47,322 nucleotides of DNA from Flavobacteriaceae bacterium (GTDB taxonomy: Bacteria; Bacteroidota; Bacteroidia; Flavobacteriales; Flavobacteriaceae), in the NCBI GenBank assembly GCA_022424955.1, contig JAKMGK010000073.1, positions 1 through 47,322 of the forward strand, given 5' to 3'. The translations under genes and the position numbers were made by a program. Positions 40,138 to 41,735 of this stretch are shown here, piece after piece. The notes below the pieces were generated by a model. That model made no database searches. It was given only the letters and a program-made list of their open reading frames with translations, and was not told the origin of the DNA. Position 1 is the stretch's first letter; the number at the start of each line of letters is the position of its first letter.

Positions 40138-40145
40138 TAAATTTG
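40138..40145 (+). promoter_or_regulatory. Putative -7 promoter element of the short RNA unit
   Basis: TAAATTTG is an exact TAnnTTTG element, with a T-rich stretch (TTTTA, 40116-40120) 17 nt upstream as a weak -33. A transcript would start near 40151 and run to the terminator at 40324, about 170 nt. Confidence 0.5.
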
Positions 40146-40159
40146 TGTTGAGTATTTCG

Positions 40160-40175
40160 CACTGTGACAACAGTG
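40160..40175 (+). other. Short leader hairpin
   Basis: CACTGT-GACA-ACAGTG is a perfect 6-bp stem with a 4-nt loop. It sits in the predicted leader 16 nt before the strong Shine-Dalgarno and could stabilise the 5' end or keep the SD region unpaired. Confidence 0.55.
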
Positions 40176-40191
40176 ATGTTTAATCTAATGT

Positions 40192-40203
40192 AGAAAGGAG
40201 GTG
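40192..40203 (+). promoter_or_regulatory. Extended Shine-Dalgarno, 12-nt complement of the 16S rRNA tail
   Basis: AGAAAGGAGGTG is fully complementary to CACCUCCUUUCU, the expected 3' end of flavobacterial 16S rRNA. Its core AGGAGG ends 6 nt before the ATG at 40208, the optimal spacing. I found nothing comparable before the other genes of the window. Bacteroidota ribosomes are known to sequester this anti-SD with bS21/bS18/bS6, so an SD this strong is unusual and probably regulatory. Confidence 0.85.
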
Positions 40204-40207
40204 TCTT

Positions 40208-40270
40208 ATGTCTTATGAACAACATTTAGGGGGTAACGGACAAAAGGTGCCTTTTAACGGGGCATTTTAA
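40208..40270 (+). CDS. 20-residue peptide ORF with strong SD (microprotein or leader peptide)
   Basis: ATG to TAA encodes MSYEQHLGGNGQKVPFNGAF. It has no signal sequence or hydrophobic segment and is Gly/Asn-rich at the end (GGNG, FNGAF). I do not recognise it. Support for translation is the perfectly spaced extended SD, a possible promoter upstream and an intrinsic terminator 24 nt after the stop. It could be a genuine microprotein, a leader peptide for the downstream 2OG-oxygenase operon, or a decoy ORF whose role is to hold ribosomes. There is no run of a single amino acid as in classical amino-acid attenuators. Confidence 0.6.
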   Translation: MSYEQHLGGNGQKVPFNGAF

Positions 40271-40275
40271 TCCTA

Positions 40276-40295
40276 CTCCTTATCTAATTAGATAA
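40276..40295 (+). promoter_or_regulatory. Anti-SD mimic overlapping a palindrome
   Basis: CTCCTTATCTA (40276-40286) is complementary to TAGAAAGGAG (40191-40200) with a single bulged A, giving 10 possible base pairs that would mask the SD. It overlaps the perfect palindrome TTATCTAATTAGATAA (40280-40295). In RNA the palindrome could instead fold on itself, and in DNA it could be an operator. The two RNA structures exclude each other. Confidence 0.55.
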
Positions 40296-40324
40296 AAGCA
40301 GACCGATGGGTCTGCTTTTTTTTG
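40294..40324 (+). terminator. Intrinsic terminator of the short RNA unit
   Basis: AGCAGACC-GATG-GGTCTGCT forms an 8-bp GC-rich stem extended by A-T pairs, followed by eight T (40316-40323). It lies 24 nt after the peptide stop and 35 nt before the 2OG-oxygenase ATG. Confidence 0.92.
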
Positions 40325-40358: not shown

Positions 40359-41300
40359 ATGAAAAACATTCCTCGCGTCGATTTAAACGATTTCTTATCT
40401 CATGAACCCGCAAGAAAGAATGCCTTTGTTGCGTCTCTAGGACAAGCTTTTGAAAACATTGGTTTCGTTATCCTTAAAGGGCATTATTTAAGCAAGGATA
40501 AAACCGATCTTCTCTACAAGGAAATCAAGGCTTTTTTTGATTTAAGCGAGGCGCAAAAACACGCTTATGAAATTCCTGGTTTAGCAGGTCAGCGTGGTTA
40601 TACTTCTTTTGGGAAAGAAAGTGCTAAAGGAAGGACAGAAGGAGATTTAAAGGAATTCTGGCATTTTGGTCAATACCGAAAAAAAGAAAACGGTCCCGTT
40701 TATCCTAACAATGTTATGGTAGATGAACTCCCTATTTTTAATACCATTGGGGAAGAGATTTTTCAAACCCTTGAAAAAACTGGGCAGGCGGTCTTACAGG
40801 CTATTGCACTACACCTAAATTTAGCTGAAGATTATTTTGATGAATATGTCGCTTATGGTAATTCTATCTTGCGCGCGATTCACTATCCCCCGATTAAAAC
40901 CGAACCAAAGAATGCTGTTCGCGCAGCAGCACACGGAGACATCAACTTGATTACCCTCTTGATGGGCGCTCAAGGTAAAGGACTCCAAGTCTTAACCAAA
41001 GAAGGCGAATGGATCGATGCTATTGCAGAAGAAGGAGAGTTGATTATCAATATGGGCGATATGATGGCTCGATTGACCAATAATAAATTAAAGTCCACCC
41101 AACATCAAGTGGTCAACCCACCAAAAGAATTGTGGGGAACCTCTCGCTATTCTGTCCCTTTCTTTATGCACCCCAGTGGAGACATGTCCTTGAATTGTCT
41201 TGAAGACTGTGTTAGCGAAACTCACCCAAAGGGATATGAAGATTCTACCGCTGGAGAATTTTTAGAGGAACGTCTAAGAGAACTAGGCTTAAAAAAATAA
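40359..41300 (+). CDS. 2-oxoglutarate/Fe(II) oxygenase, isopenicillin N synthase-like
   Basis: A 313-residue non-haem iron oxygenase of the DIOX_N plus 2OG-FeII_Oxy type. The N-terminal part has IPRVDLNDFLSHEPARK and FENIGFVILKGH. The iron ligands are visible as HGD in AAHGDINLITLL and the distal His in STQHQVVNP. The 2OG-binding RxS is in SRYSVPFFMHP. The substrate is unknown, and beta-lactam synthesis is not implied. A weak TACTTTTA element lies at 40335-40342. Followed after 3 nt by the ABA4-like gene. Confidence 0.93.
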   Translation: MKNIPRVDLNDFLSHEPARKNAFVASLGQAFENIGFVILKGHYLSKDKTDLLYKEIKAFFDLSEAQKHAYEIPGLAGQRGYTSFGKESAKGRTEGDLKEFWHFGQYRKKENGPVYPNNVMVDELPIFNTIGEEIFQTLEKTGQAVLQAIALHLNLAEDYFDEYVAYGNSILRAIHYPPIKTEPKNAVRAAAHGDINLITLLMGAQGKGLQVLTKEGEWIDAIAEEGELIINMGDMMARLTNNKLKSTQHQVVNPPKELWGTSRYSVPFFMHPSGDMSLNCLEDCVSETHPKGYEDSTAGEFLEERLRELGLKK

Positions 41301-41303
41301 AAC

Positions 41304-41735
41304 ATGACCACAACAGAGCTACTCTTTACGATTGCAAATACGGCCATTCTTCTTGCATGGCTTCCATTATTGCTCGCCCCAAAATGGTCTTTTACAAAGC
41401 AAATGCTAGCCTTCCCTTATGCGCCTTTTATCTTAAGCTTTTTTTACCTCTTTTTTCTACTTAGTGACGGTGGCCTAGCCGAAGCAGATTTTTCCAGTTT
41501 AGCTGGAATCTTAGAACTGTATAGAAACGCTACCCCAGAGGCAGCAGCAGCAGGTTGGATGCACTATTTAGCCTTTGATTACTGGGTGGGGTGCTGGATG
41601 CTGCGCGATGCGCAAAAGAAAGCTGTACCTCATTTATTAATTGTTGTTCCGTTGTTGTGTACTTTTATGTTAGGGCCTGTGGGGATTATGCTTTATGTTC
41701 TCTTTACCCAAACTCGATTAGCATTTAAAAAATGA
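41304..41735 (+). CDS. ABA4-like family membrane protein (DUF4281)
   Basis: A 143-residue membrane protein with about four helices. The pattern FDYWVGCWMLRDAQKKAVPH and the late LGPVGIMLYVLF match the ABA4-like (DUF4281) family. The plant member ABA4 is required for neoxanthin formation; the bacterial role is unknown. It overlaps the PepSY gene by 4 nt (ATGA) and follows the oxygenase by 3 nt, so the three are an operon. A carotenoid or other lipid-modifying role together with the oxygenase is only a guess. Confidence 0.82.
   Translation: MTTTELLFTIANTAILLAWLPLLLAPKWSFTKQMLAFPYAPFILSFFYLFFLLSDGGLAEADFSSLAGILELYRNATPEAAAAGWMHYLAFDYWVGCWMLRDAQKKAVPHLLIVVPLLCTFMLGPVGIMLYVLFTQTRLAFKK

Follow-up and report, generated by a model that had tools for sequence, protein, structure and literature searches.

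The window analysed here is the whole 47,322-nucleotide stretch of a Flavobacteriaceae contig, and it carries a short intergenic unit between genes for a Na/H exchanger and an oxygenase, both named from Pfam. The oxygenase gene starts 35 nt past the terminator of the unit on the same strand. The genes at 40359–41735 encode first a 2OG-Fe(II) oxygenase and then an ABA4-like protein, and several relatives share this arrangement. A preliminary description had reported a 12-nt Shine–Dalgarno (SD) sequence next to a 20-codon open reading frame (ORF), together with a promoter box and a terminator, and all of these are in place (Table 1). The exact 12-mer AGAAAGGAGGTG at positions 40192–40203 is the sole copy in the window and was seen in none of 100 shuffles; it ends 4 nt before the ATG, with a gap of 6 nt between AGGAGG and the ATG. 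The sequence from 40148 to 40322 is predicted to fold with −58.7 kcal/mol, compared with −36.5 kcal/mol for shuffles (z −5.6), and none of 200 shuffles was as stable. We predict a free-standing RNA of roughly 170 nt that would be transcribed from its own promoter and end at its own terminator.

Table 1 Predicted features of the short RNA unit in the window
Feature	Positions	Strand	Basis
TAnnTTTG-type −7 promoter box TAAATTTG	40138–40145	+	promoter-like sequence
5′ hairpin H1 CACTGTGACAACAGTG, loop GACA	40160–40175	+	covariation, loop conservation
Extended SD TAGAAAGGAGGTGT, doubling as 5′ strand of P1	40191–40204	+	13 nt complementary to the 16S tail of relatives
20-codon ORF MSYEQHLGGNGQKVPFNGAF, ATG to TAA	40208–40270	+	start and frame kept, peptide not selected
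Hairpin P2, 3′ half of the ORF, up to the first base of the stop codon	40244–40268	+	folding z-scores
Anti-SD mimic CTCCTTATCTA, 3′ strand of P1 (partner 40191–40200)	40276–40286	+	paired in the MFE of the window's unit
Intrinsic terminator, loop GATG	40294–40323	+	fold and covariation

The unit represents a conserved RNA family that matches no Rfam entry: searches of Rfam 15 with the window and eight homologous loci gave nothing above the gathering score, and the seven weak E-value matches all fell below it. Literature searches, which reached a minority of subscription papers, brought up no earlier description of the unit among the entries listed. A blastn-type search returned matches in 11 of 199 genomes of the family, two of which (L012 and L013) match the terminator region only. 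A covariance model built from nine copies scored 74–171 bits in 17 of 397 genomes of the same family, distributed over nine genera, and these 17 genomes all measure 1.3–2.2 Mb as assembled; sampled family genomes above 2.2 Mb gave no high-scoring homologue. The other 64 of the 81 genomes reported by this model reached at most 39.2 bits. Thirteen weak model matches from these 64 genomes (L031–L043) and the two terminator-region blastn matches were read by eye over 200 bases; they are mostly terminators and contain the unit in no case.

A second model, built from 36 copies, found the unit in 17 of 19 genomes of the window's genus, in all seven of genus g53 (one copy decayed) and in 21 of 22 of genus g21, and over 296 genomes drawn from the order it recovered the window's own copy alone. 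Two congeners (G099 and G668) have no model match and no unit in the 500 bases past the same exchanger gene, and in G272 (L183/L139) the SD, 5′ hairpin, mimic and terminator have drifted together while a 21-codon ORF is still open. Absence from two of 19 congeners and decay in G272 indicate that the unit is dispensable.

A pattern scan of public species genomes yielded 43 stretches from metagenome-assembled (MAG) or single-cell (SAG) genomes, partly the same contigs as in the sampled genomes, with record titles of Bacteroidetes, Flavobacteriales, Flavobacteriaceae, Ca. Arcticimaribacter and, once, Crocinitomicaceae. No cultured host was found among them, all 43 being isolates of MAG or single-cell type, and viral contigs gave no match to the exact unit pattern. 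The hosts are apparently uncultured marine flavobacteria, a marine origin that we take from isolate names (North Sea, bays) and general knowledge.

To describe conservation within the unit, identical rows were counted once, which reduced 95 rows to 70 distinct ones. Pattern counts run over 68 rows, having missed L008 and L023, in both of which the ATG is visible and followed by 20 codons; the pattern view of homologue rows omitted L138, L182, L187 and L204. In the 70-row alignment, fitted to a covariance model, 96.1% of base-pair cells are paired, compared with 38–56% when the partners are slid by 1–3 columns, and 168 cells show changes in both partners, where shuffling gives 47 on average. 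An earlier MAFFT alignment of 36 rows had given 95.5% paired cells and 82 double-change cells, with one P1 pair double-changed.

In the 70-row alignment, double changes fall on seven of ten terminator pairs and on three of six pairs of H1, whose GACA loop is kept in 67 of 68 rows; L137 carries the compensatory H1 variant GCTATGACAATAGC. The GATG loop of the terminator (40305–40308) and its closing C-G pair read CGATGG in 65 of 68 rows, above a stem that covaries freely. P1, which joins the SD to the mimic, has 93.9% of its cells paired and three of nine pairs double-changed in the 70-row alignment; it is conserved mostly as sequence, which we counted against a switch. Measured against codon-shuffled sequences, P2 has z-scores that average −2.45 and fall below −1 in 40 of the 42 homologues; it shows two compensatory pairs within five subgroups, so that this hairpin rests mainly on its folding z-scores. 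In all of 45 loci but one (L068), a TAnnTTT[GA] box starts 26–30 nt upstream of GACAACAG; this count of 44 takes in near-duplicates and is uncorrected for chance.

The H1 loop GACA (40166–40169) is also complementary to a TGTC (40202–40205) that follows the SD core, and both are nearly invariant, TGTC being kept in 63 of 68 rows and missing from L135 and L136. A GACA–TGTC pseudoknot is possible, one with no covariation support. In predicted single-sequence ensembles for 65 rows, the SD core spends about 70% of the time in pairs, on average 43% in local ones and 27% in pairs with the 3′ part of the RNA (mimic included). At this last value, the prediction of a P1 switch is not a strong one for many members. 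The predicted cost of opening the SD is 2–8 kcal/mol, far below what pairing with a free 16S tail would yield.

A search of the window's own MAG with a 16S tail pattern gave no match. The relatives G099, G300 (two copies) and G281 carry ...GGAACACCTCCTTTCT in 16S context, and with this tail the unbroken complementarity extends over 13 nt (AGAAAGGAGGTGT), one more than the 12 proposed beforehand. The predicted pairing energy is −21.9 kcal/mol for the window's SD and −17.1 to −22.0 kcal/mol among intact units. Conservation likewise speaks for the proposal, with SD, ATG and reading frame all kept in relatives, and it rules out a chance SD. The preliminary description came through two checks that might have overturned it, for a mismatched tail (in relatives) and for an unconserved SD or ORF, and its notion of a distinct short RNA unit stands as that of a conserved and structured one whose extended SD is among its best-kept parts, along with the ATG and the 5′ hairpin.

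According to the accessible part of a study of F. johnsoniae, the anti-SD is hidden in normal ribosomes and extended SDs are favoured by ribosomes lacking bS21; the mRNA of rpsU, the bS21 gene, is described there as autoregulated in Flavobacteriales by ribosomes lacking bS21 (PMC9976891). A screen of 200 Flavobacteriales reported in the same accessible part limits SD-dependent control to rpsU (PMC9976891). An intergenic 20-codon ORF could, in our estimation, have been passed over if that screen scanned annotated genes only. The SD of the unit lies beyond the limit of about −13 kcal/mol of bS21-controlled extended-SD mRNAs, and it does not precede rpsU, which sits on another contig.

We compared the two SDs in 35 genomes with a readable rpsU start (that of G685 is unreadable), 32 of which have an intact unit; unit energies for G065, G081, G281, G290 and G327 came from separate energy calculations. 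In every one of these 32 the unit SD is strong; its predicted pairing exceeds that of the rpsU SD in 29, falls below it in G020 and G703, and matches it to within 0.1 in G675. Across the same 32 genomes, 24 have a strong rpsU SD (−16.3 to −21.5 kcal/mol), one has a weak one (−9.9 kcal/mol, G052) and seven, whose leaders were read, have none (G065, G081, G290, G686, G687, G688 and G702). Retention of the unit SD in these eight genomes with a weak or lost rpsU SD makes it unlikely that the unit is no more than an accessory to that SD. The three genomes without an intact unit (G099, G668 and G272) keep the rpsU SD, and are too few to test a link.

Several observations on rpsU itself arose from this comparison. 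Eight rpsU loci (L091, L097, L102, L104, L206, L210, L211 and L217), from seven genomes in four genera, have no extended SD, unlike the Flavobacteriales pattern given in the accessible part of the published work (PMC9976891). G290 has two rpsU copies, neither with an SD. In G300, a second S21-like stretch in two pieces (G300:C2:811634-811787; L105 and L106), one of them interrupted by a stop, is present in addition to the intact rpsU. Across 19 genomes, AAAGGAGGT-N3-10-ATG sites number 2–10 per genome against 1–8 in a reversed control, so that this short pattern alone is not diagnostic; at four such sites outside the unit, 2, 2, 17 and 17 codons follow the ATG.

ATG is present in 70 of 70 distinct rows, although the spacer varies in letters and in length. 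The ORF spans 19–21 codons in 64 of 67 readable rows and 25–26 codons in the other three (L077 and L080, cut by contig ends, and L179, with an N in its stop, are left out of this count). In 43 copies, the ORF measures 57, 60 or 63 nt exclusively, and the linkers flanking the mimic come in seven and eight lengths. Frame 0 is open in all 43, the other two frames being closed in 40 and 43. An open-frame test by shuffling, which includes the decayed L183 and omits L137, L138, L200, cut rows and rows with N, puts the joint probability that the second halves would stay open this often at roughly 3.5 × 10−4 over 13 diverged representatives; the figure is rough, rows of other lengths being omitted. 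Start, frame and stop are kept, as would be expected of a translated short ORF.

This constancy bears on the reading that the RNA is a decoy or sponge, in which the SD would capture 30S subunits whose 16S tail is exposed or immature, the ORF being incidental. The 13-nt complementarity, its predicted advantage over rpsU in 29 of 32 genomes and its retention where rpsU has no SD are all what such a decoy would be expected to show. However, an invariant start codon, an open frame and in-frame insertions or deletions would be superfluous for it, and we regard a pure decoy as unlikely. A trans-acting RNA that base pairs through the anti-SD mimic with the rpsU SD or with other mRNAs would agree with the conservation of TCCTTATCTA and of the GACA and GATG loops, and with a free-standing unit ending in a terminator. 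Against it, the mimic is kept in G081 and G290, and in an altered form in G065, three genomes whose rpsU has no SD, and this reading seems to us distinctly improbable.

Substitutions within the ORF bear on the peptide. In a set of 62 rows of 19–21 codons without N, 24 independent pairs with 129 differences give a pN/pS of 0.70 in frame compared with 0.67 and 0.83 in the shifted frames, so that the whole-ORF value is not below both of them; the differences are evenly spread over codon positions (44/38/47). From codon 10 to the end, the in-frame value of 0.73 is slightly under the shifted values of 0.79 and 0.84, which may reflect weak selection on the peptide. Many rows, from different genera, share the N-terminal pattern M[SF]Y...L[RG]. 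Together with the kept start, stop and frame, this is what would be expected if the RNA were a small mRNA encoding a functional microprotein of about 20 amino acids, produced chiefly by ribosomes whose anti-SD is free. Yet in a smaller homologue set, from which L069 was omitted for an N, variation in the first nine codons is low at synonymous sites as well, and neither the window's peptide nor those of four homologues match Pfam or NCBIfam. The preliminary description had suggested a sensor, a sponge or a microprotein source; the first two ideas survive the analysis, and the third is weakened by the lack of amino-acid-level selection in the substitutions. We consider a functional microprotein to have a small chance of being correct. 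Because the frame is kept without such selection, being translated seems to be what is selected, and the peptide not, or hardly.

Gene order sets the unit apart from its neighbours. Over 45 loci, a few of them cut, the exchanger lies upstream in 36 and an oxygenase homologue downstream in 23; seven loci, all from one group, lack the exchanger and have a riboflavin synthase gene adjoining the unit. Fifteen loci were picked from the 45, mostly for absence of the oxygenase, and seven of them (L005, L007, L010, L022, L068, L071 and L082) are followed by a gene on the other strand. Changing neighbours and a next gene that faces the unit make it look like a gene of its own. That the unit acts in cis as a leader or attenuator for the gene that follows, as the nearby same-strand oxygenase gene in the window and its homologues elsewhere might suggest, is very improbable, being largely refuted by this gene order, and we rejected it. 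One copy, L068:5233-5398, lies in the MAG titled Crocinitomicaceae, in an unrelated setting with none of the usual neighbours, and may reflect an older origin, a transfer or a mislabelled MAG.

The explanation that we judge best, and to which we give an even chance, is a partly self-closing short-ORF RNA that is opened by ribosomes with a free anti-SD and whose output is translation rather than the peptide. Because ribosomes lacking bS21 favour strong SDs in F. johnsoniae, the RNA may act as bait for free-anti-SD ribosomes. According to this model, the unit would offer its 13-nt SD and short ORF to ribosomes with an exposed anti-SD, such as those lacking bS21, and ordinary Bacteroidota ribosomes, whose anti-SD is hidden by bS21, bS18 and bS6, would start far less on the ORF. 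The SD would be partly shut by the internal anti-SD mimic or by a UCUU beside the start codon, and a free 16S tail is predicted to beat both pairings. A ribosome on the ORF would melt P2 and, at the stop codon, would cover the mimic 4–11 nt downstream, as the general size of a ribosome footprint implies, such that the SD might stay open for the next ribosome. The output would be translation itself, through occupancy of the RNA by ribosomes, through RNA stability or through the capture of such ribosomes. Transcription, use by bS21-lacking ribosomes, the switch and the output are the parts of this model that we infer, on top of the observed conservation, structure, free-standing position, complementarity and kept frame without peptide selection. 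More tentatively, with the balance against it, the unit might be a dedicated sensor or trap for ribosome state, non-coding in effect, with initiation by exposed-anti-SD ribosomes (lacking bS21 or newly assembled) as its sole job.

Parallels exist for parts of this proposal. In short regulatory ORFs such as uORFs and leader ORFs, translation matters and the peptide often does not. The unit is like them in keeping its frame without peptide selection and in having hairpins that a ribosome would melt, and unlike them in having its own terminator and no constant cis gene downstream. SgrS, a dual-function small RNA, likewise combines one small RNA with a short ORF; unlike SgrS, the unit has a peptide that is not selected and a trans target that is only conjectural. 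The rpsU mRNA, as described in the accessible part of the published work, shares with the unit an extended SD of 9–13 bp and about −20 kcal/mol in a group that avoids SDs (PMC9976891). The unit differs from it in being free-standing, in coding for an unselected peptide and in being kept where rpsU has lost its own SD. As a conserved, structured small RNA of Flavobacteriaceae, the unit also resembles Rfp18 and other Flavobacterium small RNAs treated in the accessible part of a second study (PMC9723704). Rfp18 is described there for the genus Flavobacterium, and it is by this description, not by sequence, that the unit is set apart from it (PMC9723704).

If the proposed explanation is true, a second conserved extended-SD RNA, and a free-standing one, would suggest another job for ribosomes with a free anti-SD. 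Were the sensor or trap reading to hold, specialised ribosomes would have a second target outside rpsU, perhaps the main one in lineages that no longer have an rpsU SD. The unit would also lend itself to use as a compact natural reporter in studies of the role of specialised ribosomes in Bacteroidota.
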